DNA of 64,000 nucleotides, taken from the IMG/VR virus record IMGVR_UViG_3300029286_000036, positions 1 through 64,000 of that record. The stretch is one strand, 5' to 3'. This DNA comes from a virus. The notes beneath the pieces are model-generated. The model saw nothing but the letters and a program-made list of their open reading frames with translations, was not told where the DNA came from and did no database searches. A program made the translations under genes and the position numbers. This document shows, in pieces, positions 240 through 57,503 of this stretch (its first letter is position 1; each line of letters opens with the position of its first letter).

Positions 240-830
240 TTATTTCAATAAACTTATCCCAAAGTTAATGATGCGGGACTGCATCTCTTTTTTAGCAGCA
301 GCATAAGCATAAGCAGCAGCAGCAGCATAATAAGCAGCAGCAGCATAAGCAGCATAATAAGCAGCATAAGCAGCATCAGCAGCAGCAGCATCAGCAGCAG
401 CAGCATCAGCATAAGCAGCAGCAGCAGCAGCAGCATCAACAGCAGCATCAGCATCAGCAGCATCAGCATGAGCAGCAGCAGCAGCAGCAGCATAAGCAGC
501 AGCAGCCCTTGCTTTATCTCGATTTGCTTTAGTATTTCTTTTCAAAACCACTTTAGCGGCATCTATTGCAGCTCTAGGTCTTTTGTCATCTGGGTGTTTC
601 TTTTCGAAAATCTCAATGACTTGCTCTGCTGCGAAGATAGCATAAGCCAACACTTGCTTTCTTTTCATAATCCGAGGAAGCAGCCATAATGCATAATCCA
701 GCTTCCCTGCTTCTACGAGTTTCTCCAAAAAATACCCATGTTGCTTATCTAAAAGATTCATCCCAGTTACATACTCCATCCCTTTTTCACATGCATGTTT
801 GCTTTCCAAAAACGCTTTAGTTATTTTCAT
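240..830 (-). CDS. Alanine-repeat Imm5-like protein
   Basis: 196 residues. The first ~110 residues resemble the Imm-5-like (putative immunity protein) family seen in phages and bacteria, including the stretch AIFAAEQVIEIFEKKHPDD followed by RPRAAIDAA. Residues ~110-178 are almost entirely Ala with periodic Asp, Tyr and His, encoded by a GCA-rich tract, and probably form a long helix. A short charged tail follows. In this family an Ala/Tyr-rich repeat after the conserved domain is common. The gene is monocistronic under a strong promoter (855-883). Family placement is from memory of the motif; the function in phage is unknown. Confidence 0.7.
   Translation of the reverse strand: MKITKAFLESKHACEKGMEYVTGMNLLDKQHGYFLEKLVEAGKLDYALWLLPRIMKRKQVLAYAIFAAEQVIEIFEKKHPDDKRPRAAIDAAKVVLKRNTKANRDKARAAAAYAAAAAAAHADAADADAAVDAAAAAAAYADAAAADAAAADAAYAAYYAAYAAAAYYAAAAAYAYAAAKKEMQSRIINFGISLLK
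294..506. repeat. GCA/GCT-type trinucleotide tract inside the alanine gene
   Basis: About 210 bp built from GCA units with interspersed ATA and ATC on the plus strand, giving Ala, Tyr and Asp codons on the minus strand. The length is a multiple of three in all parts, so slippage would change repeat number without breaking the frame. Confidence 0.9.
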
Positions 831-906: not shown

Positions 907-959
907 TTTAGAAGTCGGATTTTGCGGGTGCGACTCGGGGGTTCGCCAGACCCTCTAAA
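907..959 (-). other. GC-rich three-way-junction fold, candidate structured RNA
   Basis: A GC-rich island in AT-rich surroundings that can fold into a compact three-way junction. Helix 1 is TTTAGA (907-912) with TCTAAA (954-959). Helix 2 is AGTCG (913-917) with CGACT (931-935). Helix 3 is GGG (937-939) with CCC (951-953), then GG (940-941) with CC (946-947) around a four-base loop. Leftward transcription would place it at the 3' end of the 36-codon gene, whose stop codon lies in helix 1. There is no U-tract, so it is not a normal terminator. Strand and expression are inferred. Confidence 0.4.
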
Positions 960-1065
960 AGTTTCTCTGAAATTCACCACATCTTTTGCATCTAACTAGA
1001 AAACAATAAGTAAATCTATATTTATGACCAAATATTAAACAGATTAATTTATTAATTGCCTTCAT
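955..1065 (-). CDS. Small CxxC protein, 36 aa
   Basis: Starts with MKAINKLICLIFGHKYR and contains the pair CKRC near residues 26-29. Short phage proteins with a hydrophobic start, a GHK motif and a CxxC pair are common, but I know no function. The ATG at 1065 has GGAGG four bases upstream; an ATG at 1068 is too close to that site. It overlaps the stop codon of the broken 66-codon gene upstream, so the two were probably translationally coupled. Confidence 0.6.
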   Translation of the reverse strand: MKAINKLICLIFGHKYRFTYCFLVRCKRCGEFQRNF

Positions 1066-1269
1066 CATTCCTCCGTATTTTCCATATACCATTTATACAG
1101 CGTTCTTATGCATTTTACGATAAACTCATCTGCTTGCTTTGAATCTAACTCATCCAATCTGTCCTCAAGTTCTGGAATTAATTCAATCGATTCATCATAA
1201 AATGAATGAATGAATTACCTTATCTAGCTGCATGTCAATTGCCCATTTCTTGAGTTCATCGTTATTCAT
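1065..1269 (-). pseudogene. 66-codon gene frameshifted by a 4-bp repeat
   Basis: A strong site (AAGGAG, eight bases before ATG at 1269) starts MNNDELKKWAIDMQLDKVIH, then the frame ends after 24 codons at TGA. The next frame continues at once as a plausible acidic helical protein (YDESIELIPELEDRLDEL, then DSKQADEFIVKCIRTLYKWY) to a stop at 1065. The junction is a run of three ATTC units. Removing one unit joins the two parts into a 66-residue protein that ends exactly where the next gene starts. It is either a real mutation, a slippage-switchable gene or a sequencing error. Function unknown. Confidence 0.75.
1201..1215. repeat. Tetranucleotide repeat (AATG)3 at the frameshift
   Basis: AATG AATG AATG AAT on the plus strand (ATTC units on the coding strand). 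It lies exactly at the point where the reading frame of the 66-codon gene breaks; losing one unit restores the frame. Confidence 0.85.
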
Positions 1270-1270
1270 T

Positions 1271-1480
1271 TTATTTCTCCTTTTTTACTTTAACTAACCT
1301 AGACCCACCACAATTAGGACAATAGGATGTTCCTAGAGTTCTGTTAAAGGTTAGTCCATTTGCATCCGATACTCTATATAACTCGTCAACAAACTCATGA
1401 TGACAGTGTTCATTTAAACATGTATACTTATAAAATCCCAAAGATTCTACTTCCATTTTAGGTTTATCTTTTTCATTCAT
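1271..1480 (-). CDS. Small zinc-ribbon protein
   Basis: 69 residues. Two metal-binding half sites are visible: CLNEHC with neighbouring His residues near positions 21-27, and CPNCGG near 54-59. This is the layout of a small zinc ribbon, as in many phage proteins that bind nucleic acid or other proteins. Start ATG follows AAGGAG by seven bases. It lies between two other small Cys-rich genes and shares their promoter at 1722-1750. No specific function can be assigned. Confidence 0.75.
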   Translation of the reverse strand: MNEKDKPKMEVESLGFYKYTCLNEHCHHEFVDELYRVSDANGLTFNRTLGTSYCPNCGGSRLVKVKKEK

Positions 1481-1482: not shown

Positions 1483-1680
1483 TTATTTCTCCTTTTTCTT
1501 CCTAGTCATAAAATTACTCTTATTAACGCAAGCAGTACATGATGAGATATGGGGATTACAGCAATCGCAGCAAGGCATTGTTTTCTCTAATTCATCCTCA
1601 TCTATTGGAATTGAGTTGTCTATTATGGGTTCATCTTTGTGAGTTTCTTGCTTTAAATGTGATTTCTTGATTTTACTCAT
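1483..1680 (-). CDS. Small Cys-rich protein
   Basis: The start is the ATG at 1680, which has AAGGAG eight bases upstream; an upstream ATG in the same frame lacks a site and overlaps the promoter region. The 65-residue product has a charged N-terminus and a cluster of six cysteines (CCDCC, then SSCTAC) that probably binds zinc. The next gene follows after two bases. Function unknown. Confidence 0.7.
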   Translation of the reverse strand: MSKIKKSHLKQETHKDEPIIDNSIPIDEDELEKTMPCCDCCNPHISSCTACVNKSNFMTRKKKEK

Positions 1681-1721
1681 GTGACTCCTTATCATTGAAT
1701 TTATATTCCCCTTCTGAATAT

Positions 1722-1750
1722 AATATATCATATTAATATTATATTGTCAA
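1722..1750 (-). promoter_or_regulatory. Promoter TTGACA-17-TATATT
   Basis: On the minus strand the element AAAATAATCCTTGACA, 17 bp ending TGA, then TATATT. The TAA stop of the mom gene is inside the A-rich upstream part. It drives the small zinc-protein genes to the left. Confidence 0.85.
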
Positions 1751-1753: not shown

Positions 1754-2371
1754 TTATTTTGGATATTTCTCTTGTTTATATTTAATAATATTATAATTGG
1801 GCTTTTTACCTGTAATGTAAATATAACGATGCTTGCGGGGTCTTGGCTTTAAATAGAAATTATCTCCGTATATCTCACGCATCTTATCAGCTCTGTGCTC
1901 CATTCCTCTGGTCTTATCTGCAATTGTACATCCATGTAAATGTTCCATTCCTTTTACTTTCCAATCTGTTCTTTTAGCTGATAATCCATAATATTTAAAG
2001 TTACATGCTTGATATACATATCCCTTATGATTCTGTTCTGTATCTGCAAATGAGACCACAATTGAATTGGGAGGTAATAGCTTGGGACTCTTAGATACCA
2101 AGAAGGATGCCTCATTTGGGAGATTATTGAGTAAACAAAGACGATTCAACTCAAGAACTCTGGAAATATTCTCTTTACCTGCTACTCCCATTCTTAAAGT
2201 AGATGATGGAGGGGTGCCGTAAGTTGCAATCCCAACTAATAGTTCATTAAGGAATAATCCATAAGCATAAGATATAGATGGGCTTCGATGTGCATAATGA
2301 ATATTTAATATAAATGGAAGAGATTCTGCTCTGGATATTAACTTAACAATATAATCATGCTTGTTCATCAT
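1754..2371 (-). CDS. mom: Mom-like DNA modification protein (GNAT fold)
   Basis: 205 residues. Resembles phage Mu Mom and its relatives, which convert adenine in DNA to a carbamoylmethyl form and so block restriction enzymes. Recognisable blocks are SYAYGLFLNELLVGIATYG, ELNRLCLLNNLPNEASF, a VSFADT motif, GYVYQACNFKYYGLSAKRTDW and a basic tail PRPRKHRYIY. Mom is a member of the GNAT acetyltransferase superfamily. No second modification gene is adjacent. There is no ribosome binding site: the first of two adjacent ATGs lies four bases after the -10 box, so the message is probably leaderless. Single gene under its own promoter. Confidence 0.88.
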   Translation of the reverse strand: MMNKHDYIVKLISRAESLPFILNIHYAHRSPSISYAYGLFLNELLVGIATYGTPPSSTLRMGVAGKENISRVLELNRLCLLNNLPNEASFLVSKSPKLLPPNSIVVSFADTEQNHKGYVYQACNFKYYGLSAKRTDWKVKGMEHLHGCTIADKTRGMEHRADKMREIYGDNFYLKPRPRKHRYIYITGKKPNYNIIKYKQEKYPK

Positions 2372-2423: not shown

Positions 2424-4301
2424 TTATTTGATGCTTTTAAGTAATTGATTTAGTTCAATTATTCTAAGAGCTTTATTTATTAAATCTGAGCTTTTAACTG
2501 TATCAATGAAGTTATCTATTAAAGGAGCTAATCCCTTAAGAATATCTCCATTTGGCCATAAACCATCGGTTTCAGTACATCCAGCTAAATATGTATTCTC
2601 ACGATTATTCTCTTTTAGTTTATTTTGGATATGACTTTCAAATGCTCTTGCAAACATCTCACATCTATCAGTCCAATAACTACCTTCTAGTCCCATTTCT
2701 TGTAATTTCTTAACTGTTACACTAACCTTATCGTAATAAGCTTGCCATTCTGGGGATGAGGTTAATTTTCTAATAGATTTCTCAACTGGATTCTGATTTT
2801 CCTCTAAATGAGTAGCAGATTCAGTAATATATCCCTGTTTTCCAGTATTAGCTACATTTACTAAATTATCTAATGCATGTCCCCATTCATGGGCAAGTGA
2901 GCCTATTCCATTCTTACGAGTTAAATTGATTACCATTAATTGAGGTTCATAATGAGCTAATGCCTCTCCCTTGCCTCTTGCTCCTATTGCAACAGCTAAT
3001 TTACCATTAAATGATACATATTTCTCAGGGATTCCAGTAATATCCGATAAGTCTTTAAATGCTGTTGTTAAAGACTTTAAATGATATTCACGTTCATCAT
3101 CTGTAACTGAGTTACCATATTGTAAGCCTCTAAGTTGCATTGTCTTTAACAATTCATTCTCAGCTCCAGCAACTGTCTTAAGTTCATTATACTCTGGACC
3201 AACTCGTTTTGCTTTTTTATTGTAAAAATCAGATGCTTTTATCTTCTTTTCAGTTACTCCTTTAATCTTATCTAAGGATTCGCCTTCAAGAATTCTAGTT
3301 GCAAATTCAACCTTTTGAGAACCAACTAATTCATCTGCATTCATTTTAGTTACAACAGATGCAAAATCCTTATATATCCCACTAATTGCAGATAATTTAT
3401 TATTATAATAACTTGCTAATAGATGTGCAGTTCCTGAGTATTTATCTGTAGCTTGAATTCCTTGAACCATTTGTTTAACTTTATCCATCAATTTTTGTCT
3501 TAAATCTGTGAATTTTGTGGAAGTCTGTGATAATTCACCTAAGAAAGTATTTAATGTTTCAATTGCTTCAACGTATTCTTTTCTGTTGATTTTATCTAAT
3601 TCATCTTTCTTTATGCCAACATACCCCTCACCCATGTCATATACTGATGTGTTTCGGCTGTAAATATCTATTCTACCCATCGTTCCCTTAGGGGTTCTGT
3701 ATGCTACAAATCCATCTGGACTTACCCTAGTAGGCATTTCATAAGGTTTTGCAGGTATATTCTTAATTGCATAATAAGCCATTAATCGAACTTCGAGATT
3801 ATCATTTGTTAATCCAGTTATTAAATCAACAGGATTTTGTTTTAAAATGACATCTCTTTTTACGGATTCAATTTGTCCAGTAGATTCAGCGTGCTCTAAT
3901 CCTTTCCATTCATTTCTTTTGTGACGTGCGGATTCAGCCACATCTTCACCCTTATTCTGGAACTTAGATTTGCGAGCATAAGCATATTCGCCTTCTTCTA
4001 AGTCATGTTTAAGTTCTTTAGATACTTCAGCACGGACTTCAGATTCTGCTTCTGATGTTCTTTTATCTATATCAGCCATCATCTTAGCTTCTTGGTCTTC
4101 TTCATGTGCTGCTGCTTGTTGTGGAGTAGGTTCTGCTCCTTCTATCTCTTTACCATGTTCATCTTGATAAAAATATTTATAATTACCGCTTGAACCTTCT
4201 CTTCTGATGTATTTATGATACATTGATTTTCTTAGTTCTTCACATAAATCTTTCATTTGAAGGGATTTACTGAAAGTCTGGAATAAATTACTTTTGCTCA
4301 T
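2424..4301 (-). CDS. Polyvalent protein with HEWGH metallopeptidase domain
   Basis: About 625 residues. Residues ~30-50 carry the module KYIRREGSSGNYKY, also present in the neighbouring 979-residue protein. A coiled, charged middle is followed by a C-terminal zinc-peptidase-like domain with HEWGH (~475-479) and a later EMFARAFE segment that could supply the third ligand; this matches the large polyvalent protein-associated domain LPD1. Such proteins are often injected with phage DNA. The ATG at 4301 has GGGG upstream and is preferred over the ATG at 4313; it overlaps the end of the upstream gene. The last residues read ELNQLLKSIK, a motif repeated in the neighbour. Confidence 0.7.
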   Translation of the reverse strand: MSKSNLFQTFSKSLQMKDLCEELRKSMYHKYIRREGSSGNYKYFYQDEHGKEIEGAEPTPQQAAAHEEDQEAKMMADIDKRTSEAESEVRAEVSKELKHDLEEGEYAYARKSKFQNKGEDVAESARHKRNEWKGLEHAESTGQIESVKRDVILKQNPVDLITGLTNDNLEVRLMAYYAIKNIPAKPYEMPTRVSPDGFVAYRTPKGTMGRIDIYSRNTSVYDMGEGYVGIKKDELDKINRKEYVEAIETLNTFLGELSQTSTKFTDLRQKLMDKVKQMVQGIQATDKYSGTAHLLASYYNNKLSAISGIYKDFASVVTKMNADELVGSQKVEFATRILEGESLDKIKGVTEKKIKASDFYNKKAKRVGPEYNELKTVAGAENELLKTMQLRGLQYGNSVTDDEREYHLKSLTTAFKDLSDITGIPEKYVSFNGKLAVAIGARGKGEALAHYEPQLMVINLTRKNGIGSLAHEWGHALDNLVNVANTGKQGYITESATHLEENQNPVEKSIRKLTSSPEWQAYYDKVSVTVKKLQEMGLEGSYWTDRCEMFARAFESHIQNKLKENNRENTYLAGCTETDGLWPNGDILKGLAPLIDNFIDTVKSSDLINKALRIIELNQLLKSIK

Positions 4302-7227
4302 TTTTAACCCCATATTGTGTGAGTTGATTAAATTGTTCTAATGCTGCATCTATATCACCATATGATGCTTTTAGTCCATCTGTATTCATAAAACTAGGAT
4401 GTCTTAAGGCATTGTGCATCTTATTCTTTAATCCGGCCAGTCCTAATAATGATTCTTCTAGTTCATTTAAGTCTAGTGAATCATTTGCTGCTTTTAGTTT
4501 TTTTATTATTGTGTCAGTTGATTCAAAATCATCACTTTGGATTAAATCTATTCCTTCTAAACTTTCAGCTAATTTTATTAACTTATCAGTTGTTTTTTGT
4601 AATGTCTTATGGTCTGAGTTTGTTAATTCCTTGCCCATTGCTTTTTTATGAAATATCTCATGAACCTTAGTGAAATTATCTACTACATCTTGACCTATTG
4701 GTGCGAGATTTCCTTCTTTTGCATAATCTTTAGCAAATTTCACATCACCATTGGCAGCCACGTAATCGCTCATCTTAACTTTAATGGCTCCTTTCTCTGC
4801 TCCATCAACTCTTATGATTCCATCAGTTCCACCATTGTCAAGGTATTTCTTATATGCTTTTACGTAAATATCCTTTTCTCCCTTCTGGTCTGCTGAGTAT
4901 ATGTAGTTCGTTCCTCTTGAGTATATCGAAACATAATCCTTTGGTTGTTTCTTATAATAACTCATTAAGGCATCATAACCTTGTTGATGTTCATCTCCTC
5001 TTGCCATTGGAATTATCCCATCTTTATCGTTAAGTGGAATCATTACATATCCTACATCATCCATTTGTCCTTTCTTTTGGTCTTTGGATATTGAATTGCC
5101 AACTAATATCTTAGCTTTCCAATTCTTAGCGTTACTTAAATCTCCTTCCATTTGGAAATTCTCAGGTTTTGCTTTCGAGTCTAATTTAAGGGATGTTTTA
5201 ATTTCTTCTTTAGATGCAGAGAGTTTATTTGTTAAGTCTTTGATTTTACTTGTCTTATCTTTTTTAGTTTCTTTTAACTTATCATTTAACTCTTTAATCT
5301 TCTTAGGTTTTTCTGCCCCCGCATCTTTCATTTCATCAAAATTAAAATTCAATGCAAATTTCTTCTTCTCGCCATTTGCTAATTCCATTTCACTATACAT
5401 ATCAGTTGCATCTGCTTTTTCTTCCCAACCCTGACCTGTTTGCATCTTCCCTTCATTCTCACCTGTTGTATATATCATTTCGTTGTTGCCTTTGTCACCA
5501 TATATAATAGAATCTTGATTAAACTGTTTTCCTAATTCTACTAGTTTTTTTCTATCTGCTCCCATTACTAAGAATGAGTCCTCTTCTTCACCGTATTTCC
5601 CTTTCATGTCCACATATTCTATTCCAGCATCATCAAGGGCTGTTCTTAATTTGTCATATCTTTCTTCTATTGCCTTGTCATCCATTTTGGAGTCTTGAGG
5701 GCTATTTGGATTCTTTCCAGCCGATATCATTCCGAATTGTTCTGTGTTTAACGTACTTTCAAGTTTCTCTTGGCTTATCTTTGTTGTTGTATGATACTTA
5801 GAAGTTCTTTCACCTTTTACATCTTTTCCCTTGACATCGTTGATAAAGTTCTGTAGTGCTTCTCTTGGAGTCTCGCCATTTGCACCATATTTATCTTGGA
5901 AGTTTTGAGCAACTTGAGGAGATACATTAATCTCTTGTATTTTCTTGTAAGCTTCATCTATATTAAACTTAGCATCTCTAATGATATCTTCAAAATGCTC
6001 AGTCTTTGAATAGTCTACTTCTTCTTTCTTACCTTTAGGTTTTTTAACTTCTTCAAACTTAGGTTGGTCTTTTTTAGGTGCTTCTTCAGATATAGGGGAT
6101 TTTGCTTCTTTAACTGAAAGCCATTGACCTGATTGTTCCTTACGATAATCCACTCCACCCCATTTACGCACGGTTCCTGCTGGGAGTGGTTTGCCTTTGG
6201 ATAATATTTCATTGAGTTCGGAGATTTCGAGGGATTTACTAACTGGTTCATCTTTCTCTACTTCTTGCTTATCAAATAATGCAACAACGCCAGCCATCTT
6301 GCCACCCATTGCACTGTTCTTATATCCTGCATACCCTGCTGATTTTATCTGATTTTCCATATCGGTAGCATCTTGGAAAGGCACCTTAAACTTAGCTTTC
6401 ATTTTCTCAATATCTGCCACATCTATTATATTCTCAGGGCGTTTAACTTTGTACATCTTTTTAGCTGCTGAGGTTACTAATACTTCATGGTCTTTTTTGT
6501 CTGGACTTTCATAATAATAAGAGCGAGGTGGTCTGTTTGGTCTGTCTGTCTCTTGTCCTGCTGCTGCCGTTCCTTGTTTATGCGGGTCAATTACATCAAG
6601 ATTCTCTTTAGTTGAATAATGGTATAAATAGGTATAGTTTCCTGAGGTTCCTTCCCTTTTTATGTACTTATGGGTCATAGCTTTGTTTAAAGCTGAGGTT
6701 AATACAGTATACTCACTATTTTTCTCATTCTCACGTTTAGTCATTTCATGATTTGATTTAATTTCATCTAAAACAGACTGTTTGTCCTTTTCTATCTGTT
6801 CTGGTGATGTAATGGGTTCTTTATATTTAATATTGTTTAATATACCATCTTTATCTTCTATTGCTTTTTCGATACCAGTGGATAATAGCTTTTTAAGTGC
6901 GTCTATCTTTTCAAGGGTTGCTCTATCTTCTCCTGCTATTTGAGATAACTCAGCTACTTCTTGTTTAATTTCATGTGCTGGTTTATTTAAGTAAGCGTCC
7001 ACATTTATTGGGTTACGTCTTTCTTCTTCTAGCTTGATTTGTTTGTTTTCTTCATGTAACTTAGTAAAATACTTATTGTACTCTGCTTGTTCTTTTAGGT
7101 CTTTTGGGGTAGATTCGTGGTAAATATACTTAGCTTGGTCGCCTGTGCCTAGCTTGGCTAAATACTTATGATTAAAGCTTTTTAGCAATTCATTTAATTC
7201 TTGTATATCTTTTTTAGAGTCTGACAT
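4288..7227 (-). CDS. Large polyvalent protein, 979 aa
   Basis: A long, lysine- and glutamate-rich, probably modular protein. Two copies of a short module are visible, HKYLAKLGTGDQAKYIYHE (20-38) and HKYIKREGTSGNYTYLYH (187-204), and a third, weaker one near 352-371 (VRKWGGVDYRKEQSGQW). The segment after the second module (~203-320: YHYSTKENLDVIDPHKQGT onward) resembles an ADP-ribosyltransferase-like or related domain of phage polyvalent proteins, but I cannot confirm a catalytic set. Residues ~640-690 are coiled coil. ELNELLKS-type motifs occur near the N-terminus and around 337-343. Late position next to head genes suggests a virion-packaged, host-acting protein. Confidence 0.6.
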   Translation of the reverse strand: MSDSKKDIQELNELLKSFNHKYLAKLGTGDQAKYIYHESTPKDLKEQAEYNKYFTKLHEENKQIKLEEERRNPINVDAYLNKPAHEIKQEVAELSQIAGEDRATLEKIDALKKLLSTGIEKAIEDKDGILNNIKYKEPITSPEQIEKDKQSVLDEIKSNHEMTKRENEKNSEYTVLTSALNKAMTHKYIKREGTSGNYTYLYHYSTKENLDVIDPHKQGTAAAGQETDRPNRPPRSYYYESPDKKDHEVLVTSAAKKMYKVKRPENIIDVADIEKMKAKFKVPFQDATDMENQIKSAGYAGYKNSAMGGKMAGVVALFDKQEVEKDEPVSKSLEISELNEILSKGKPLPAGTVRKWGGVDYRKEQSGQWLSVKEAKSPISEEAPKKDQPKFEEVKKPKGKKEEVDYSKTEHFEDIIRDAKFNIDEAYKKIQEINVSPQVAQNFQDKYGANGETPREALQNFINDVKGKDVKGERTSKYHTTTKISQEKLESTLNTEQFGMISAGKNPNSPQDSKMDDKAIEERYDKLRTALDDAGIEYVDMKGKYGEEEDSFLVMGADRKKLVELGKQFNQDSIIYGDKGNNEMIYTTGENEGKMQTGQGWEEKADATDMYSEMELANGEKKKFALNFNFDEMKDAGAEKPKKIKELNDKLKETKKDKTSKIKDLTNKLSASKEEIKTSLKLDSKAKPENFQMEGDLSNAKNWKAKILVGNSISKDQKKGQMDDVGYVMIPLNDKDGIIPMARGDEHQQGYDALMSYYKKQPKDYVSIYSRGTNYIYSADQKGEKDIYVKAYKKYLDNGGTDGIIRVDGAEKGAIKVKMSDYVAANGDVKFAKDYAKEGNLAPIGQDVVDNFTKVHEIFHKKAMGKELTNSDHKTLQKTTDKLIKLAESLEGIDLIQSDDFESTDTIIKKLKAANDSLDLNELEESLLGLAGLKNKMHNALRHPSFMNTDGLKASYGDIDAALEQFNQLTQYGVKNEQK

Positions 7228-15361: not shown

Positions 15362-15513
15362 TACTTTAAGCTCCTATATAGAACTATCCCATAAGTAATA
15401 ACAAAAGCTGCTAAATACCCTGCTGATTCATCTCTTCCTACTATAATTGCTTCTATTATGAAACACATGGATGCTAAAATCAATACGCTGTCGATAATCA
15501 TTTCTTTAATCAT
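15361..15513 (-). CDS. Small membrane protein, 50 aa
   Basis: A 50-codon frame with AAGGAG before the ATG. It begins MIKEMIIDSVLILASMCFI and has two hydrophobic segments separated by GRDESAG. It is tightly packed: its ATG overlaps the stop of the NDP kinase gene (ATGA) and its stop overlaps the next start (TAATG). This packing argues for a real gene. Function unknown. Confidence 0.65.
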   Translation of the reverse strand: MIKEMIIDSVLILASMCFIIEAIIVGRDESAGYLAAFVITYGIVLYRSLK

Positions 15514-15902
15514 TTTGAACTCCTTGTATTTTTATATAAAAATTCTACTTCTCTTATGAAACTATCTTCTGAATCACTTCCATGAACTGCATTCTCGTAC
15601 AATTTCTTTCCAGTAAACTTCTTTCTAATATCCAACATAACTCTACGCCATTCTACAATCGCATTCTTTTTTTCAAGAATCAAAACAAATACTACTCCAC
15701 TCGACATAAACTTAACCAAATCTTTATAAAAATCCTTATCCTTATGCTCTTTATAAAACTCACTAGCTGCTTTTACCGACATCTTAATTTCTCTAATAAA
15801 AACTATATCAAACTTATTCTTCTCAATAGTCTGAATTATCTCTCCCACATTTCGATTCTTTACTGCGTCTGGTTTAATGATTGCTACTGTATGTTTGCTC
15901 AC
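15510..15902 (-). CDS. ndk: Nucleoside diphosphate kinase
   Basis: 130 residues. NDP kinases move the terminal phosphate between nucleoside triphosphates and diphosphates through a phosphohistidine. The family blocks are present: TVAIIKPDAVKNRNVGEII at the start, a central FMSSGVVFVLILEKKNAI and the active-site block NAVHGSDSED with the catalytic His near 108. Length is close to the usual ~140. GTG start with AAAGGAG. It lies one gene away from a divergent paralogue that has lost the His, and would supply dNTPs for phage replication. Confidence 0.9.
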   Translation of the reverse strand: MSKHTVAIIKPDAVKNRNVGEIIQTIEKNKFDIVFIREIKMSVKAASEFYKEHKDKDFYKDLVKFMSSGVVFVLILEKKNAIVEWRRVMLDIRKKFTGKKLYENAVHGSDSEDSFIREVEFLYKNTRSSK

Positions 15903-16150: not shown

Positions 16151-16516
16151 TTAAACTTCTTCATCAAAAAAATACAGCATGTCCCTTACGGCTTTTTCTT
16201 CACTTGCAGAAGCTTCGATAATATCGCCACATACAGCCTTGATAATAGAAATGATTCTGTTAAATTCAGCTACTGCATTTTTCTTTCTTAATACCAAAAT
16301 CATAGACGAACCTGAAGTCATGTAAGATATCAACTCCTCGTAGAAATTCATTGTTTTATATTCCTTGAAGTATCCCTTAGCCCTTTCACGACTAAAAGTT
16401 TCGTTTGCTAAGTAACCAATCTCAAAATCACAAGCTTCTATAATTCTAATGATGTGTGGTTCTAACTTACTTCTAATTCCATGAGGTTTGATTAAAGCAA
16501 TAGTAAAGTCTTTCAT
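16151..16516 (-). CDS. NDP kinase-like protein lacking the catalytic His
   Basis: 121 residues from the ATG at 16516 (AAGGAG upstream). It shares the NDP kinase framework with its neighbour: FTIALIKPHGIRSKLEPHII at the start, SYMTSGSSMILVLRKKNAV in the middle, and an active-site block reading DIIEASASEE where the partner has NAVHGSDSED. The phosphate-accepting His is therefore Glu. It is probably not a normal kinase; it may join mixed oligomers, regulate, or have a new role. The fold call is solid, the loss of activity is inferred. Confidence 0.8.
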   Translation of the reverse strand: MKDFTIALIKPHGIRSKLEPHIIRIIEACDFEIGYLANETFSRERAKGYFKEYKTMNFYEELISYMTSGSSMILVLRKKNAVAEFNRIISIIKAVCGDIIEASASEEKAVRDMLYFFDEEV

Positions 16517-16517
16517 T

Positions 16518-16856
16518 TTAGCTCCTTGGTCTGTCATATTCTGACGCATTTAATGTAGTATGCTTATCAGTTACTGAATTTAACCATGCTGTTTTTACAA
16601 ACTTTCTATAAGGAATAATTGCAAGTAACATATCGTATCCAGCGTTATATTTCACTCTATAAAGTATCTTTTCTACCATTCCATCTTCTACTTCTATTTC
16701 AATAACTTTTGCAGTCGAAGTATCTAAGAAGGCAGGAAGCGTAATCCCCTTATCCACTGCTCTGGAAAGAGCATGATTTGAATAAGTTAATGAGATTACG
16801 CCGCTCGGCAATCTATTTGTCGGAAGACCTAATTGATAATGGTATTTTCTAATCAT
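16518..16856 (-). CDS. Hypothetical protein with DUF4258-like start
   Basis: 112 residues. LTYSNHALSRAVDKGITLP is like the N-terminal strand-helix of DUF4258/BrnT-type small proteins, and the rest is beta-rich (VEKILYRVKYNAGYDMLLAI). Ends TTLNASEYDRPRS. It is probably of the RelE-like fold or a related phage family, without a visible antitoxin. Function uncertain. Confidence 0.5.
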   Translation of the reverse strand: MIRKYHYQLGLPTNRLPSGVISLTYSNHALSRAVDKGITLPAFLDTSTAKVIEIEVEDGMVEKILYRVKYNAGYDMLLAIIPYRKFVKTAWLNSVTDKHTTLNASEYDRPRS

Positions 16857-31893: not shown

Positions 31894-31902
31894 ATTATAC
31901 CA
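31894..31902 (-). promoter_or_regulatory. Extended -10 promoter TGGTATAAT (late type)
   Basis: Minus strand ACTGTGGTATAATTAATGGTAG, overlapping the TerL stop codon, no -35 box at 17 bp. Precedes the small virion protein and portal genes. Confidence 0.6.
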
Positions 31903-34900
31903 CAGTACCACTATCGTCATCATCTGAACCCTCGAATTCTGCTTCCTCTAGCTCTTCTACCCTTACTAATAGTCCTGTTTTAGGGTCTTTTGCATAATCT
32001 GCACTGTTGTCTAGTACGGAATATCCCAATTCTTCATCTAAAAGCTCTGGAGGAGGTGCAGAAAAGCACTTTCCAGCTATATCTCTTTGAATTCCATAGG
32101 TTTTTTCTAAACTTACGGCTTCTACATCAGATTCAATTAGTCCTTCGCTTTGGGTTAATATGTATACTCCCATTGCCAAACTTGCACAGTTGTGTACAAC
32201 GTATCCATTTGCCACATAACTATTATCTTCTTCAACAGATAAATTATATACGAAGCCATTGTACTGAAAATCCTCGTTTTTATTTATCTTGGAAGCAACA
32301 TATTTTCCATCAAAAGTGTTTTTACTATTTAAAGATACTTCGGATACATCTTGGGGTCTGTAAAGAGTAATCCAGTATTGGTCTTTAGTCTTTTTTTCAT
32401 ATCTGTGTCTAGTGCATTGACTTATGTTAGTATGGTATCCCTCTCTAATAGCTAACTCTCTCATGCTAAGAGCTAACTCTTTTGATGTAGTTGCTCCTAC
32501 TCTATAATTTCTTGTTCTGCAAGAATCTGCCTTAAGCCATCCGTACAATACATACTTATTCCTAAAAGAATAGTCTTCAAAAAAAGATGGAAGCACCTTT
32601 TCTGACTCAAACGAGTAACACTTGCTAAATAGATTCCATATAACTTTTGAATGAAAATTTAATATTAAACAATTACGGTGTACCTGAATCTGACTATTTA
32701 TGCCAATTTTAAGTAAAAACTTCTGTAATATTCTGCAAAGTCTACCATCTTTTTTAGCATTAAAAGCTAAATTACATCTATAATGAGACTTTTCTCCATC
32801 TTTTGCTGCCCAACCATCTCCCAAAAAATATCCCAATATAAAGGACATCATTTTATCTATTTTAATAGAGTTTACTTTAGTTAGATTATTTGCTCCTATT
32901 TCGAATTCATTATATTTTAATCTAGTATTTTCCACGTATCTGGGAGTTACTGTTTTATAACTCTTTTTCCAGTTCTGTAAATCTACCCACTTGTACTGAA
33001 TATACTCCTTCTTATCTCCTGTGCCATAAAAGGGAATGTTAGCTAACACTGGATGATTATCTGTTATCATTACATCTAAGTTTCCAAAACTACGAATCTT
33101 TTTTAGATATCCATTAAAAGGAACTTCGCTTACATCTAATACTGGTTTGAATCTTCCATTATGTGTTAAAACTAAATCTCCACGTTTAATGTCTGTTATC
33201 CTTTTATGACCGTTAATTGTTCTAATTAATGTTGCTGGATGAAAACAGTAATCGTCGTGCCCACCTGCTGGATGCCCTATTCTAATCTTACCTGTTGAAC
33301 TTACTTCTACCTGAAGTTCCTTTATTTCCTTAATGGTAGGAACGTGGTCTAGTAAGTCTATTAATTGTGAATCAGTTAAGTATTTGAGATTCTTATATAT
33401 TTTCTGCTTAAACATGTTATTCCATGTTATTTCTGTTAAAACTAAATTAAACTGAGCAAATATTTCCCTTAATGGATTGTATGAAAATTGGTCTGCAAAT
33501 ATCTGGTCGAAGTCATATTGCTTATTGAGTTCTCTTATTACTTTAGCTACTTCAAAAGCCTTTACCGGAGCTTTAGGAGTTCCATGAAATCCTACTGTTG
33601 CAAATTGCTTTATTCTATTTCCTAATTTACCCACAATATTAACAGTAAAGCGGTCTCCTTTGAATGCTGAGTCTATGGAGCATATGTATCTAACTCCTTG
33701 AAGTTTAGAAGCAGGAGGTACTACTGAGGTTCCTAGCATGATTGCTTGGTCTATAGATGCAATGTTAAAGAAATTGCTTATAGATTGAAGGAAATTAGCT
33801 CTATACTCCCTGTCAAAGTTAGTTGGGTCTTCTTTGTGCTCATCTTTGTATTCCTCTGGGTCATATCTATCATTAAAAACCCATGAAGGAGACTTTAATA
33901 TTAAGTATTTTGTAGAAAACTCATCTCTTTTTTCATATTTTTCATAAAAATAACCACTTTTAGCATTTGGGGTTGATATTTCAATCCATAATCCTTGTTT
34001 ACCGAATTGTAACATAGATGGCTTTAAAGCTCTAACTATAGATTTTGCTGTTTCTTTGGAATCCATTTCGGCTCCCCAGAATGCAATTTCGTCATTGATT
34101 ATACATGGACATGCTGAACCTCGAGAAGATTTAGAAGATGCAGCATTGGTTCTTATTCTTACAAATGAGTAAGAAATTCTACCTTTTTCATCTCTAAATG
34201 GCACTTTTAAGTTTATTACATTAAATGTGTTTTTAGCATGTTTGTTTACTAATCTACATAGAGCAGGAGAATCTTCTATTATTGCTCTAATCTCGGATAC
34301 TGTTTCATCTGAAAATTCTTTAGATTGACTTAATACTAAGATAGTTGCTACTTTTTTACGACCTAATTGAGCTTTCCAATTTTCCTTTAAAGCAGCATAT
34401 ACAGCGAGAATGGAAGCTATTTGGGTATTGTGTGTAACTAATCCATTTGCTAATAAATATAAGTGAGTATCATTATTAAGTGTTAAATCGTAACAATGTT
34501 CTTTTCTAGGATTTTTCATTTTAACGCCAGCATATTTAACATTAGAATTATGAGGGTCAATCGCATCGAATTCTGGTCTGTATTTTTTTCTATCACATAC
34601 TAAGTAGGCGGTTAGTTCTTTTAATATTCTGATTGCATCATTATTGTTATATCTCAATCTGTACACTGGTCCATTTTTGTATTTAGCTCTATTGTCCACA
34701 TATATCTTTAAACTTACTGAAAATAGGTCTAAAAACAATGCTTGGGCTGCTTCTACAACTATTTTTGCTTGCATATCTAATCCAATTGACATTCTATTGT
34801 GCTTTTTATTAAATCTAACTCCGCCATCTGTGTCAATTAATCCTGCTAAAAATTCTAATTGGGAAGTTCTGTTCCATGTTCTTATTTCTTCTAAATCACA

Positions 34901-35827
34901 GATTTTATCATAAGAATGTCTTCCATCTAACCATTCTCTGTAAAATGGAACGCTGTCTTTATCTACTCGTTTTAATCTCCAACTATAATTATTCTTATTC
35001 TCGGAACTATGTTCAACTCTTAACAATCTAGCTACTTTGTCTACTACTGATACATCAGCAGAAGAAATCTCAACGACTCCTTCTCTTAGTGGGCAACATC
35101 CGTCTCCTAACAATGCACCTAAAGCATATGCTTCGGTAATTTCTTTAGTACCTCCAGAAATTTCAGTATATTCTCTTGCTATTCCATCTAATTTATTAGT
35201 GAATTTTTTAATCTCTTTTACTCTTCTTTTTCCACTTCTCCAGTCATGTGCTAACCATCTATGCTCTTTAGTACATGTTGCCATTACTTCTCTATTTCTA
35301 ACTAAATCCACTACATCCTTTATTCCTTGGTCATGCGTTCCTATTACTTCAGTTAAAGATACTGTTCCATCTGCATTATATCCATAAACTAAATCTCCAA
35401 CTTTTATATCTTCAATTTTCTTACTTCCTGTAGGTGTTTTTACTAGTGTTCCCTCAGCTAAACATTTGCCACCTCTTCTTCCTACGATAAGTGATATATC
35501 TCTAATGGTTAAAATGCTTTTAAAATCATATTCTTTTTCTGTATAATACTCATACAATTCCACTTCAGTCATCTGAGTAGTTATTAATTGAAATTCTTCC
35601 TTTCCCAAATCCTCTTGAAATACTGAAAATTTAGTTTCGGAATCTAATTCCTGACCCATTACTAATTTAATAAGAACTCTCTGTCCTGTAGTAAGTTTCA
35701 TATTAATGAAACCCTTAGCTTCAACGAAGTTCTTGATGGGGTCTCTCATTATCTGCTTATGCAATTCACAGAAAAGAACATCAAACTGCTCTTCTGTCAA
35801 TTTCTCTATTTTATCAAAATCTTGCAT
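31895..35827 (-). CDS. terL: Terminase large subunit with two inteins
   Basis: 1310 codons; without the two inteins the protein is 611 residues, a normal TerL size. The ATPase P-loop GRRGGK-T is split by intein 1 after Lys121. Walker B is CPCIINDEIAFWG (573-585). The nuclease domain shows ICSIDSAFKGDR (715-726), IFADQFSYNP and HDDY-C, the last being split by intein 2 after Tyr860. TerL cuts and pumps DNA into the prohead. Splicing is needed for both its ATPase and its nuclease. Directly follows TerS. Confidence 0.93.
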   Translation of the reverse strand: MQDFDKIEKLTEEQFDVLFCELHKQIMRDPIKNFVEAKGFINMKLTTGQRVLIKLVMGQELDSETKFSVFQEDLGKEEFQLITTQMTEVELYEYYTEKEYDFKSILTIRDISLIVGRRGGKCLAEGTLVKTPTGSKKIEDIKVGDLVYGYNADGTVSLTEVIGTHDQGIKDVVDLVRNREVMATCTKEHRWLAHDWRSGKRRVKEIKKFTNKLDGIAREYTEISGGTKEITEAYALGALLGDGCCPLREGVVEISSADVSVVDKVARLLRVEHSSENKNNYSWRLKRVDKDSVPFYREWLDGRHSYDKICDLEEIRTWNRTSQLEFLAGLIDTDGGVRFNKKHNRMSIGLDMQAKIVVEAAQALFLDLFSVSLKIYVDNRAKYKNGPVYRLRYNNNDAIRILKELTAYLVCDRKKYRPEFDAIDPHNSNVKYAGVKMKNPRKEHCYDLTLNNDTHLYLLANGLVTHNTQIASILAVYAALKENWKAQLGRKKVATILVLSQSKEFSDETVSEIRAIIEDSPALCRLVNKHAKNTFNVINLKVPFRDEKGRISYSFVRIRTNAASSKSSRGSACPCIINDEIAFWGAEMDSKETAKSIVRALKPSMLQFGKQGLWIEISTPNAKSGYFYEKYEKRDEFSTKYLILKSPSWVFNDRYDPEEYKDEHKEDPTNFDREYRANFLQSISNFFNIASIDQAIMLGTSVVPPASKLQGVRYICSIDSAFKGDRFTVNIVGKLGNRIKQFATVGFHGTPKAPVKAFEVAKVIRELNKQYDFDQIFADQFSYNPLREIFAQFNLVLTEITWNNMFKQKIYKNLKYLTDSQLIDLLDHVPTIKEIKELQVEVSSTGKIRIGHPAGGHDDYCFHPATLIRTINGHKRITDIKRGDLVLTHNGRFKPVLDVSEVPFNGYLKKIRSFGNLDVMITDNHPVLANIPFYGTGDKKEYIQYKWVDLQNWKKSYKTVTPRYVENTRLKYNEFEIGANNLTKVNSIKIDKMMSFILGYFLGDGWAAKDGEKSHYRCNLAFNAKKDGRLCRILQKFLLKIGINSQIQVHRNCLILNFHSKVIWNLFSKCYSFESEKVLPSFFEDYSFRNKYVLYGWLKADSCRTRNYRVGATTSKELALSMRELAIREGYHTNISQCTRHRYEKKTKDQYWITLYRPQDVSEVSLNSKNTFDGKYVASKINKNEDFQYNGFVYNLSVEEDNSYVANGYVVHNCASLAMGVYILTQSEGLIESDVEAVSLEKTYGIQRDIAGKCFSAPPPELLDEELGYSVLDNSADYAKDPKTGLLVRVEELEEAEFEGSDDDDSGTVV
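32189..33247 (-). mobile_element. Intein 2 of TerL (353 aa, LAGLIDADG)
   Basis: Begins CFHPATLIRT and ends SYVANGYVVHN, followed by Cys as +1 residue. The splicing block with ITDNHPVL is block B-like. Endonuclease motifs are FILGYFLGDGWA (136-147) and a degenerate YVLYGWLKADS (232-242). Inserted in the TerL nuclease motif between HDDY and CASLAMG. Boundaries follow standard intein rules (Cys1, His-Asn end, Cys+1). Confidence 0.92.
34427..35464 (-). mobile_element. Intein 1 of TerL (346 aa, LAGLIDADG)
   Basis: Begins CLAEGTLVKTPTG and ends HLYLLANGLVTHN with Thr as +1 residue. Block B is near CTKEHRW. Endonuclease motifs are YALGALLGDGC (113-123) and FLAGLIDTDGG (205-215), both with the catalytic Asp. 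Inserted inside the P-loop, between GRRGGK and TQIAS. Confidence 0.95.
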
Positions 35828-46479: not shown

Positions 46480-49400
46480 CTATTTAGACTCCTTTAAAGA
46501 ATCACATATTACAGGTTCTGCAATCATTGGAATATCTAGCATCTGTGCATATTTATTCTTTTCCATTCCCTGTTGTAAACATTTAGCTGCAAGTTCAGCT
46601 TGGTCTTCTCTAACTAACATTGTTATCTCATCATGTATTTGCATGCTAATGAATCCCTCGACGTTATTTTCTCTTAAGAGAGTTTCCACTTCTATCATAC
46701 TTCTGTTTGCAATATGAGCTGCCAGCGACTGAATTGGTGTGTTTTTTGAACCATTATATTCCACTTTGCAGAGGTTTTTTATGAAAGACCAGTATCCATG
46801 TTCAGCAATCTTAGCATAATCTATTTTGAATTTTCTTGAAATTTCTTTTAAATCTTCTTCTCTCAACTCAATTGAAGTTCCTTGTATCTTAACCGTTGCT
46901 TCCTCTAATCGAGATGCTGCTGTACTCAGAAATTTTTCAAATAAATCCTTTCTCATTTTGATAGATTCTTTTGTATCTTTAATTATACTTCTACCTAAAA
47001 TTTTCTTACTTACATAAGGAGCAAATTCAAAGTGTCTTCTTCTACCTATCAAAGACTCGACATATCCTTGTTCTATACATTCGGATTCTCTTTCTTTCAT
47101 GTATCTATGCAATTGTGGATATGCTTTTAAGTACAAATCTATTACTAATTTTCCTTCTTCATACATTGGCTTTCCGTCTTCTTCTACGAGATTGAGCATG
47201 TGGCAGACCTGGGCTTCTTTCGCCCCGTAAGGGATACCGAGAACTAGAGGTTTTATCTTAGTTCTTTCTGGGTTATTTATCTTTTTAAGATAGTTATCGT
47301 CTTTTGGATTTGCTGAGTATTTATGTTTATTATCGAACATGTCACAAAAAACCTGTGAATATAGGTCTAGTCCTTTTAAAAATACTTCTTTAAGTTTTTT
47401 ATCTCCAGAACAGAATGCGAAGCAATTATGTACTCTCATTCCATTGCATATAAACTCTTCATTTCCTTCTACAGTAATGTCAATAAGTTCTTCCTCTTGT
47501 CCATATAATATGCGAATAACTTCCGCCGATTGTCTATGAGTTTTAATAACTTTTCTTTTCTCTTTAACTTTCTTTCTTTCTACTATTTGAAATTTTTGAA
47601 AATCTAAATCTATTAATTTATTAACCGAAATAGAAGTTAATCTTATAATATATCCCTCATGGGTCTTATTTACACTCTTCTTATCTGCACAACACAGTAT
47701 TCCATCCAGACCTATACTATCTAAGAGATTGATGATGTCTGTAGCTAACAAGATAGATTTAGTAGAAAAACATAGCTCACCACCTTTTTTATAAGTACCG
47801 TCTGTATCAATTAGTCCTGCTATGAAGTTAAGTTTTCTCTCTAACGAACTATTAAATATAAATGTTGGAACTCTTAGCGTCTTTTTAACTTCGTCTATTA
47901 CGTTAAATGTGTGTTTAAATATATCCACTAACCATGCATCGTGAAAATTAAGAGCTTTCATGCCTTGTGTTCTTTTATCAGTGTATATTCCCCCTTTATA
48001 TCCATATCTCATCATAATCTCATTGAATCTGGTAATAACTCCATCTTCTTCTAAACCACATACTCCTATATAATTCGCTCTTCCCGTTCTTGCCCATATT
48101 CCATCTCCTACAAAAGCTCCCAATACCCAATAAATGTCGTCATCTAAATTAAAATAGCCTATTGGTTTTTCCGCATTAGGGTTTTTTTTGGGAAATAAGG
48201 GAAGTTTTATGTTATCTTTATGCTCTATATTAAACTTGCAGTCTTCAATTATATCTCCCTTAACTATGTCTTTTGCTTCAATAAATCCTTTATTTAGCAC
48301 ATATATCTTATGTTCATTGGAGCATCTAACTAATCCTCTTTTCGTTATAATAGATATGTTATTTTTAATAGATGTCCATTTTTTAAGAATAGTTTTGAAT
48401 CCATACTTGGTTTCAATTAAATCTCCTTCCTTTACATCTTTAAAAAGTTTAATACCTGAATCCTTTATATTTACCAGAGAGTCGGGGTCTACACATCTCG
48501 GTTCTAGTGATGAGAAGTCGGCGTTTACAATCTTCCATCCTTTAGGTGCTGTGAAACCTTTCTTAATGGCAGAAGGCTGTATTATGTTTTCTTCAACATG
48601 ACCACAAGTTTTACATGTTTTTGTGAGTAAAAGCTCTATTGGACTAGTCATTTCTACATCTTCTGATTGACACTTTGAGCAGCAATTTGATTCTTCTTCA
48701 ACCTTTGGAAGAGTCTGTAAGTTAAATCCACCTGCACACGAAAAACGTCCCGAAATGGTGCCTGATTGACGCCAGTCTACTGTTAAATATCCGTTTATAT
48801 TGAGTTTTATTGCAGGAAGTACGTAAGATGAGTAAAGTTTTGCAAGTTTATTATAAGTTAATAAATCCTTAACAAAGTCGAATTTAGGAAGCATGTGCTC
48901 AATTAATACCTCAGCTTTCATACTTGGAATTAAATTGTCTTTTGTAGCAGAATCTGTTTGAGGTAAGTCCTTTGCACTCATCCCCAATTTCTCACAAAAT
49001 AACCATCTTACGTGAGCATCTGAGTTAATATTAAAAGAGTATCTTCTCTCTTCTATTTCTTCATATAGTTCTTGTTTAATCTTTTTTAATTTCTCATCAC
49101 TATATTTAATTTCTTCTTCACCCAAAATAAATCCAAAAAGCCAATGAGGATTAATCTGATAAGCCTTCTTTATTGCAGGTTTGCTCATTGTATCTTTACC
49201 TGTCTTTGAGTCTTTAGGTAGTGATAGTCCCTCTAAATCTGCTATTTTCTTTACTAGTCTTTGATTAGAAATAGATTCATCTATAGATTTTCCAAGTGTA
49301 AAGTCATCTAAATAAGGAGATATATTATTTATGATATTATCTTCAAGTTTAAGCATCATTTGCTTAGTTTCTATTTCAAGTTTTTTGAAATGTTCTACGT

Positions 49401-51273
49401 CAATAAAAACCCCATTTCTTTTCATCATTGTGACTATTTTGCAGAGAGGCATTATTTCATCAGTGTAGAACCAGTCAATTTTAGATTCCCCATACTCAGA
49501 GTAAAATTTATTCATTAGAACTTCAAATATACCTAAGGTTAAAAAGGCATCCGCACAGTTATGGGTTATTATTCCATTTACTACATAGGACTCATCCTTG
49601 TCTACTGAGATATTATGTACCTGTGTCTTTTTCCATTCTTTATCTATTCTTAAAATCCTAACATGTCTCTTAAATGAACAATCTCCTTTAATGTCATTTC
49701 TCTTTTTTATTTTTAAAAATAAATTTAATTTAGTTGCCTCATTTGTAGTTAATAGAAGATTATATCTATGCCTTCTATTTTCAGTAGCGTTATAATCTCC
49801 TCTATATGCACTAATTTCGTGTTTTGAAAATAATAAATCTATTGTATTAATTAAATTATAAGAGGTTACACATAAATCTAATTGATATGTAAATCTTCTG
49901 GTTTTCATCTTCCTAAAATGACCATCACCGTCATATACTCCAGCAATCAATGACATTGCTGCATCGTAGTTATTGAGAAGATAACTAAAAACTTCTTTAC
50001 TTATCTTTTTTTCATAACATTTAAAATTTCCTCCACTTAATCTTAAGAATAACTCCCCTAATTTAGTATCACAGATAACCACATCTCTACCTTTACTTTC
50101 TGCCTTTTTTATTATGGAGCATTTAATTCCTCTTTCTTTTAAAAAATTACTAAAAAAAGGAACTTCATCTTGGTGCAACGTTATGACTAGGTATTTGTTA
50201 TTATTCTGAATCCTAACGTATCCTTCTGCTAAGTATAATCCAAAAAACCACCAAAAATCATTATCCATCTCTGACAAACAAGTTCTATCTTCTATTATTA
50301 TCTGAGGCTTGGTTAATAAGTCATTCATTTTTAAGTCACATACTTTTACCCATTCGTATTTTAAAGTTTTTTCATTTAAAACCAAAAAAGGATGCTCTCC
50401 AGTAACGTTCTTTATTTTTCTACCACCCTCCAAAGAAATGTTGTAAATATAATCCTCTACTTCTTGAGTTTTAGTTGCGTACACTTCATGAATACTTCCT
50501 GTATGCGTTATCACTTTATCTCCAGTGCTTACGTCCTCAATAAACTTAGCGGAACCGTCTTCCATAGAAACTAAAGCCGAATTCTTTTCAAAACATGCGT
50601 ATTTACTCTGATACCAAGATTCGGCTCTCCAGACCTCCTTTGAAGTTCCACCATTTTCAATAATAGATTTAACCAGTTCTTGCTGTTCTATATTAGCTGC
50701 CATGTAGGGATTTATACCTAGCTCTTCTTTGTATTGTTCCGCAATTTTTTTTAATCCATGAGGTGAATTTTCATCCAATGTGTGGTGCAAAAGTCCGACA
50801 TCACAAAATACATTATCCTTAATATCTAAACCAGTATTGACGAAAATCATGTTAACATCAAAGGGAGCATTTTGTAGAATTAAATTTCCAGAAGTAAGCC
50901 ATTTTTTCATATAATCTACTATGAATTGAGGAGGTGAGTATTCCTCTGGAGTTACAAATTCTGGATATTCCTTTCCTGTCCAAATGTCCACATAATTACC
51001 ACTCATGAAGCATTCATATACTTCACCTTTAATTGTTCTTTTTTTAAGGCTGGTTGGGATTTTTTTCCATTCTAAAAATGGAATGTAAAATCCTTGGTCT
51101 TTAGATACAGCGACTGAGAATCCAATTACAACTGACTTATAAAGTAATAATCCATTAGTCTCAGTGTCTATCGCTAAAAAGTCAAATTTAGGTTTATCTC
51201 CGTCCATGAGGAAGAAGTCTAACTCTTTTAACTTCTCTAGGGAATCTATTCTATTGTGTTTCGTGAAGGGCAT
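46480..51273 (-). CDS. Family A DNA polymerase with two inteins
   Basis: 1597 codons; the spliced protein is 894 residues. 3'-5' exonuclease motifs: FLAIDTETNG (Exo I), LQNAPFDVNMI (Exo II) and KYA-CADAF (Exo III, split by intein 1). Polymerase motifs: SGTISGRFSCAGGFNLQTLP, motif A VNADFSSLEPR-CFAFCS (split by intein 2), motif B RTKIKPLVLGIPYGA and motif C MQIHDEI. Unusual is a zinc-ribbon insertion (CSKC at 865-868, CKTC at 887-890) between the NLQTLP block and motif A. Main replicative polymerase, under a strong promoter. Confidence 0.93.
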   Translation of the reverse strand: MPFTKHNRIDSLEKLKELDFFLMDGDKPKFDFLAIDTETNGLLLYKSVVIGFSVAVSKDQGFYIPFLEWKKIPTSLKKRTIKGEVYECFMSGNYVDIWTGKEYPEFVTPEEYSPPQFIVDYMKKWLTSGNLILQNAPFDVNMIFVNTGLDIKDNVFCDVGLLHHTLDENSPHGLKKIAEQYKEELGINPYMAANIEQQELVKSIIENGGTSKEVWRAESWYQSKYACFEKNSALVSMEDGSAKFIEDVSTGDKVITHTGSIHEVYATKTQEVEDYIYNISLEGGRKIKNVTGEHPFLVLNEKTLKYEWVKVCDLKMNDLLTKPQIIIEDRTCLSEMDNDFWWFFGLYLAEGYVRIQNNNKYLVITLHQDEVPFFSNFLKERGIKCSIIKKAESKGRDVVICDTKLGELFLRLSGGNFKCYEKKISKEVFSYLLNNYDAAMSLIAGVYDGDGHFRKMKTRRFTYQLDLCVTSYNLINTIDLLFSKHEISAYRGDYNATENRRHRYNLLLTTNEATKLNLFLKIKKRNDIKGDCSFKRHVRILRIDKEWKKTQVHNISVDKDESYVVNGIITHNCADAFLTLGIFEVLMNKFYSEYGESKIDWFYTDEIMPLCKIVTMMKRNGVFIDVEHFKKLEIETKQMMLKLEDNIINNISPYLDDFTLGKSIDESISNQRLVKKIADLEGLSLPKDSKTGKDTMSKPAIKKAYQINPHWLFGFILGEEEIKYSDEKLKKIKQELYEEIEERRYSFNINSDAHVRWLFCEKLGMSAKDLPQTDSATKDNLIPSMKAEVLIEHMLPKFDFVKDLLTYNKLAKLYSSYVLPAIKLNINGYLTVDWRQSGTISGRFSCAGGFNLQTLPKVEEESNCCSKCQSEDVEMTSPIELLLTKTCKTCGHVEENIIQPSAIKKGFTAPKGWKIVNADFSSLEPRCVDPDSLVNIKDSGIKLFKDVKEGDLIETKYGFKTILKKWTSIKNNISIITKRGLVRCSNEHKIYVLNKGFIEAKDIVKGDIIEDCKFNIEHKDNIKLPLFPKKNPNAEKPIGYFNLDDDIYWVLGAFVGDGIWARTGRANYIGVCGLEEDGVITRFNEIMMRYGYKGGIYTDKRTQGMKALNFHDAWLVDIFKHTFNVIDEVKKTLRVPTFIFNSSLERKLNFIAGLIDTDGTYKKGGELCFSTKSILLATDIINLLDSIGLDGILCCADKKSVNKTHEGYIIRLTSISVNKLIDLDFQKFQIVERKKVKEKRKVIKTHRQSAEVIRILYGQEEELIDITVEGNEEFICNGMRVHNCFAFCSGDKKLKEVFLKGLDLYSQVFCDMFDNKHKYSANPKDDNYLKKINNPERTKIKPLVLGIPYGAKEAQVCHMLNLVEEDGKPMYEEGKLVIDLYLKAYPQLHRYMKERESECIEQGYVESLIGRRRHFEFAPYVSKKILGRSIIKDTKESIKMRKDLFEKFLSTAASRLEEATVKIQGTSIELREEDLKEISRKFKIDYAKIAEHGYWSFIKNLCKVEYNGSKNTPIQSLAAHIANRSMIEVETLLRENNVEGFISMQIHDEITMLVREDQAELAAKCLQQGMEKNKYAQMLDIPMIAEPVICDSLKESK
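47425..48495 (-). mobile_element. Intein 2 of DNA polymerase (357 aa, LAGLIDADG)
   Basis: Begins CVDPDSLVNI and ends EFICNGMRVHN, with Cys as +1 residue. Endonuclease motifs WVLGAFVGDGI (123-133) and FIAGLIDTDGT (224-234) look intact. Inserted in polymerase motif A between DFSSLEPR and CFAF. Confidence 0.95.
49558..50595 (-). mobile_element. Intein 1 of DNA polymerase (346 aa, LAGLIDADG)
   Basis: Begins CFEKNSALVSMEDG and ends SYVVNGIITHN, with Cys as +1 residue; block B near NVTGEHPFL. Endonuclease motifs are FGLYLAEGY (118-126, Glu in place of Asp) and SLIAGVYDGDGH (215-226). Inserted in Exo III between KYA and CADAF. Confidence 0.94.
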
Positions 51274-56936: not shown

Positions 56937-57503
56937 TTATTTTTTACCTCTCGTACTTGGACTATCAGATTCTGCTAAAACAAATCCAGCAATATTAAAT
57001 ATACTTACTCGCTGTTTATTACCAGTTACATATTTATCGCCAGTCATTAATTCTTTTAAACGATAATACCACATTCTATTAAAATCATCTAACATTCCTT
57101 TATTTTTTATAACATATTCTGAAGCTTTATCCATATCATTATTAAAATAAATAGCAGCAATTATCCCACATAGTGAAGACATGATGCTCTTCTGCTTTGA
57201 TGTTAATTCTCTATGAATTGCAAAAGATAATCTTAATGCTTGAAGGTCTTTGCGTGCGTTATAGTGCAGCTTATCTTCATTCCTGATGATATAATCCAAT
57301 CCTCTTTCGTTGGAATCTTTTAAAGTTGCAACTGTTTTATTTAACTCAGATATTTCTTTTATTATATAAACATCTGGGCAAATTGGATGATATAACAGAC
57401 AGAAATTACCTAGAACTTCGTACACTAAAAATGTATTAGATGCTTGATTTCCTTCCATCTTCAGTGTTACGGTCATTCCTTTTTCGATTTTTTTATCGTT
57501 CAT
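56937..57503 (-). CDS. Hypothetical protein, 188 aa
   Basis: Beta-rich first part (GMTVTLKMEGNQASNTFLVY, then FCLLYHPICPDVYI), helical second part with a hydrophobic stretch (IMSSLCGIIAAIYFNNDMDK). Translationally coupled to groEL (ATGA overlap), which suggests a partner or a shared regulation. No family recognised. Confidence 0.55.
   Translation of the reverse strand: MNDKKIEKGMTVTLKMEGNQASNTFLVYEVLGNFCLLYHPICPDVYIIKEISELNKTVATLKDSNERGLDYIIRNEDKLHYNARKDLQALRLSFAIHRELTSKQKSIMSSLCGIIAAIYFNNDMDKASEYVIKNKGMLDDFNRMWYYRLKELMTGDKYVTGNKQRVSIFNIAGFVLAESDSPSTRGKK

Follow-up and report, generated by a model that had tools for sequence, protein, structure and literature searches.

A small phage gene probably frameshifted by the gain of one unit in an ATTC repeat

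The best explanation for the locus described here is that a real small phage gene of about 66 codons was frameshifted when spontaneous slippage added one 4-base unit to a short repeat, a reading to which we assign a probability of roughly two in three. Two coding-like frames meet at a repeat tract that is rare in the 64,000-nucleotide window (the whole stretch of DNA that was analysed, positions 1-64000 of a linear contig, 65,904 bases long, from an environmental bacterial virus), the first frame is led by a ribosome site, and the segment fits between its two neighbours as tightly as genes do in an operon. The features of the locus are as follows:

955-1092, minus strand: downstream ORF, weakly DUF1660-like, with a CxxC zinc motif (Pfam PF07874 E 0.0024, below cut-off; phrog_2670 E 7e-4).
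1065-1199, minus strand: 3' half of the broken gene, with 44 codons and a stop (codon score; junction test).
1178-1217, minus strand: imperfect hairpin with the repeat tract as its 5' arm, limits approximate (DNA fold).
1195-1269, minus strand: 5' half of the broken gene, with 24 codons opened by ATG 1269 and closed by TGA 1197-1195 (ORF list; AGGAG upstream; codon score).
1198-1214, minus strand: 17-nt zone holding the frame change, between TAA 1217-1215 and the first-frame TGA (20-nt frame overlap counted from the TAA).
1201-1215, minus strand: repeat tract ATTCATTCATTCATT, three tetranucleotide units plus three bases, the site of the frame break (period-4 tract count).
1271-1480, minus strand: upstream gene, 69 aa, with zinc-ribbon-like cysteine pairs (ORF list; weak zinc-ribbon matches below cut-off).
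1483-1731, minus strand: 82-aa ORF (ORF list).

The window has a G+C content of 33%, and its capsid and portal proteins are ~30% and ~36% identical, respectively, to their SPO1-like phage counterparts. The broken gene lies ~1 kb from the left end, among small minus-strand genes. Its ATG at 1269 is abutted by the stop of the 1271-1480 gene, and on the other side the 955-1092 gene, whose weak similarities hint at a possible DUF1660-type zinc protein, probably starts at ATG 1068 or at ATG 1065, where it overlaps the broken gene's stop codon. On the same flank, the C-terminal half of ORF 240-830 (minus strand) is alanine-rich with many AGC/GCA triplet repeats, and this ORF shows weak similarity to Imm5-like families.

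Several other features of the genome were recorded. The adjacent, overlapping genes 2424-4313 and 4288-7227 (minus strand) have by eye a repeated motif in common (HKYIRREGSSGNYKYFY / HKYIKREGTSGNYTYLY / HKYLAKLGTGDQAKYIY). The adjacent paralogues 15510-15902 and 16151-16549 (minus strand) are nucleoside diphosphate kinase-like and about 30% identical, and the latter seems, by eye, to be without the active-site histidine motif. Judged by eye from splice-junction motifs, the terminase-like gene 31895-35827 and the DNA-polymerase-like gene 46480-51273 (minus strand) apparently hold two inteins each. Endonuclease genes of GIY-YIG- and HNH-like type are numerous in the genome as well, and the phage encodes a GroEL chaperonin at 57500-59110 (minus strand; phrog_5725 E 2e-109).

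The first frame of the broken gene is preceded at normal spacing by the ribosome site AGTAAAAAAGGAGAAATAAA, i.e. AGGAG; it encodes the 24-residue product MNNDELKKWAIDMQLDKVIHSFIL and meets its TGA straight after ATTCATTCATTCATT (1215-1201, minus strand). The second frame is open from just past TAA 1217-1215 down to TGA 1067-1065, a stop sharing bases with the tandem ATGs (1068 and 1065) of ORF 955-1092. Since the two frames overlap only in 1214-1198, the break must fall there, and 14 of these 17 nt belong to the repeat. When one ATTC unit is removed, the joined frame runs for 66 residues to TGA 1067-1065. The sequence-only reading had described a 24-codon gene with a ribosome site, broken at an ATTC repeat, and a continuous 66-residue protein once one unit is taken out; the former is confirmed by the ORF list, the AGGAG and the sequence itself, and the latter by reading the joined frame. 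Its further remark that the joined protein ends where the next gene begins is correct in that the stop overlaps the next ATG codons, but this is a fixed property of the second frame whatever the lesion. Similarly, its claim of one extra ATTC unit accords with the repeat filling most of the break zone, yet other single changes fit equally well. Indeed, a unit gain is not the sole possible lesion: any other +1-type change in the zone 1214-1198 gives an identical picture, as would, for example, one base added in the adjoining T run.

What favors slippage is the tract and its position. Reading AATGAATGAATGAAT on the plus strand, it is the sole period-4 tract in the 64-kb window to reach 15 nt, and hence its longest tetranucleotide tract, where 0.1 would be expected under Markov models of orders 1-3; the bare 8-mer ATTCATTC is not enriched in the window (5 found versus 6.3 expected). 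The length of the tract by itself is unremarkable, and it is the position inside the 17-nt break zone that ties the tract to the break. Because the longest tract falls in this zone, it is improbable that the break arose independently of the tract, and slippage is the natural cause; the event would then have been the gain of a unit. A DNA fold of 53 nt around the tract gives -7.4 kcal/mol (z -2.4), whereas an RNA fold over 91 nt lends the hairpin no significance (z -0.8). We considered a hairpin-templated origin of the insertion and rejected it, the hairpin being insufficiently significant and not needed.

There is good evidence that the two halves are one gene frameshifted internally. Codon usage was scored with a model for which 49 long ORFs from the window served as training set. 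The 5' part reaches 3.0 bits, where true frames average 3.4 +/- 3.2 and wrong ones about -2.8; the 3' part reaches 4.3 bits, below the true-frame average of 7.7 +/- 5.8, with wrong ones at about -6.4. Openness over 44 codons is found in only 0.3-1% of wrong-frame samples. Furthermore, close to the break no start codon is available to the second frame, the nearest being a TTG at 1157, 40 nt downstream of the first-frame stop. We compared this with other ribosome-site-led ORFs that have another long open frame soon after their stop (n = 27 junctions, a few sharing one stop): a second-frame start codon lies within ~40 nt of the stop at 26 of them, the sole exception being 1269/1197. This junction test replaced a frameshift-aware Viterbi gene model, which flagged 1206 together with many ordinary gene junctions. 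The locus could alternatively hold two units of coding, namely a 24-aa microprotein and an independent or chance open frame that possibly begins at TTG 1157. A ribosome-site-like sequence upstream of that TTG and the lack of a homologue of the joined protein in our searches speak for this arrangement; we nonetheless consider it unlikely, since the second frame runs uninterrupted through 44 codons of coding-like usage and ends exactly on the next start while having no start codon of its own at the junction. The two frames would thus once have been a single gene.

If they belong together, they might still be joined during translation, by programmed +1 ribosomal frameshifting or another form of recoding, giving a protein one residue longer. 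The frame overlap of just 17 nt, the required shift of +1 and a hairpin that can form around the site are consistent with such a mechanism, which we regard as very unlikely. No codon able to re-pair in the +1 frame, as in prfB-type shifting, precedes the TGA: by the codon re-pairing rule, the TTA found there would mismatch at the middle base when re-pairing at TAT. Moreover, the hairpin contains the site rather than lying downstream of it, the layout is not known to be kept in any relative, and recoding would not account for the break falling at the repeat.

It is also conceivable that the broken frame is an assembly or consensus error and that the true genome carries the intact one, as the locus lies close to the end of a linear viral contig. 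A near-twin contig bears on this point. It is 99.98% identical with zero indels over 20.7 kb, covering only 14367-35076 and not the repeat; since it agrees over that length without an indel, indel errors look rare in the assembly. In addition, the 15-nt tract is short enough for a single short read to span. We therefore hold an error to be unlikely. The sequence-only reading had offered a recent mutation and an assembly error as its alternatives, and of the explanations considered here a recent mutation ranks as the likeliest.

The search of the joined 66-residue protein that had been suggested from the sequence was run and returned no detectable homologue: nothing convincing appeared among viral contigs, phages, plasmids, bacterial genomes, PDB, Pfam or PHROGs. 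The two genome matches are, by eye, short acidic stretches in MoeB/ThiF-rhodanese-like proteins and were dismissed as chance. A single-sequence AlphaFold model, built on the +1-step reading that is one residue longer than the joined protein, shows three helices at a mean pLDDT of 67, too weak for a fold search. The gene product is an orphan protein and, judging from this model, probably helical.

Sister copies of the locus were sought along several routes. The capsid gene led to 23 related loci, among them the near-twin contig, and the whole records, mostly fragments, were examined. Neither in IMG/VR nor in these 23 related phage records, many of them fragments, was a second copy of the locus with any unit number found, and exact-pattern scans gave no match either to the repeat flanks at any unit number or to the 3' half. 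Scans with the neighbouring genes 1271-1480, 2424-4313 and 4288-7227 likewise returned nothing. Both the small protein and the 2424-4313 gene are absent from all 23 capsid-relative records (mostly fragments), which suggests that variable accessory DNA makes up the left end of the genome, as far as records that are in many cases fragments can indicate.

A further route used the neighbouring Mom-family DNA modification gene at 1754-2371 (minus strand; Pfam PF25680 E 9e-37, phrog_1384 E 3e-49), with which 41 viral loci were fetched. It was abandoned, as the Mom gene is the sole shared feature besides scattered weak matches to common phage genes, and the small gene is in none of these loci. Homologues of the Mom gene, up to 68% identical, occur in dozens of viral contigs with hardly anything else in common with this phage; given their presence in such otherwise dissimilar contigs, the Mom gene appears to move between phages.

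The sequence-only reading had gone one step further and proposed a slippage-controlled, phase-variable gene. The geometry, the coding scores, the packing and the rarity of the tract uphold a gene broken by slippage; control does not follow, with three units only and no unit variation found, and phase variation is not supported. Under such a proposal, reversible gain and loss of ATTC would switch the small protein and perhaps a coupled downstream gene. In its favor, the window has no longer tract of this kind, the repeat sits early in the reading frame, and the unit number of a non-triplet repeat inside a reading frame sets the frame at 1201-1215, as at a contingency locus. There is also phage precedent, in that repeat-driven switching by poly-G tracts is described for Campylobacter phages (Sorensen et al. 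2021, as cited in PMC11868660). For tetranucleotide (AGTC) repeats, however, 2-4 units are classed as proto-mutable (1e-9 to 1e-7 per division), about 3-12 as mutable, and those above 9-10 as hypermutable (PMC4235727). Three ATTC units stand at the border of the proto-mutable and mutable classes, below the hypermutable range and far short of the tracts at known contingency loci. An orphan product of this type is, furthermore, unlike the usual targets of phase variation (receptor binding, surface modification, DNA methyltransferase), and the searches of IMG/VR and of the 23 related records, many of them fragments, yielded no copy with another unit number. Altogether, we judge a phase-variable gene to be unlikely as well. 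A narrower version, in which a slow tetranucleotide slippage switch in a distant SPO1 relative acts on a small helical accessory protein and also tunes the downstream gene via the stop/start overlap, seems distinctly unlikely.

For the preferred reading, a simple frameshift by unit gain, the following course may be envisaged. Strand slippage during replication would add one 4-base unit, the gene being readable with two units and broken with three. The ribosome would then make the 24-residue peptide and halt, leaving the remainder untranslated or, at best, subject to weak restart at the internal TTG, and the 66-residue product would presumably be lost. The gene would probably be dispensable, and the frameshifted form could represent either the majority in the sampled population or a single lineage that happened to be sampled. 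As such, the locus would be an ordinary case of short tandem repeats breaking small accessory genes of phages and a reminder that such genes escape gene callers. Mixed unit numbers, if seen in reads, would instead make it a rare case of repeat switching in a phage gene that does not encode a receptor-binding protein.

Three known systems invite comparison. The poly-G receptor-binding genes of Campylobacter phages are alike in that repeat length does the switching in a phage genome; according to the account in PMC11868660, which cites Sorensen et al. 2021, they involve hypermutable mononucleotide tracts, receptor-binding genes and plaque phenotypes, none of which is shown at the ATTC locus. The tetranucleotide contingency loci of Haemophilus influenzae share an in-frame tetranucleotide repeat whose unit number decides the frame; the reported ones, whose variation is established, have at least five units and in most cases 15 or more (PMC4235727), whereas the ATTC locus has three. 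In lacI of Escherichia coli, three tandem 4-bp CTGG units lie in frame, a one-unit slippage breaks the frame, and the site is a hotspot of spontaneous unit gain and loss, also in Pseudomonas putida (PMC3485313). There, three units are the intact state and the mutations were directly observed, whereas at the ATTC locus three would be the broken state and the event is reconstructed from the layout. As in lacI, a few tandem units are found at the break of an otherwise continuous coding frame (1201-1215), and in its unit number the ATTC tract is like lacI and unlike a contingency locus.
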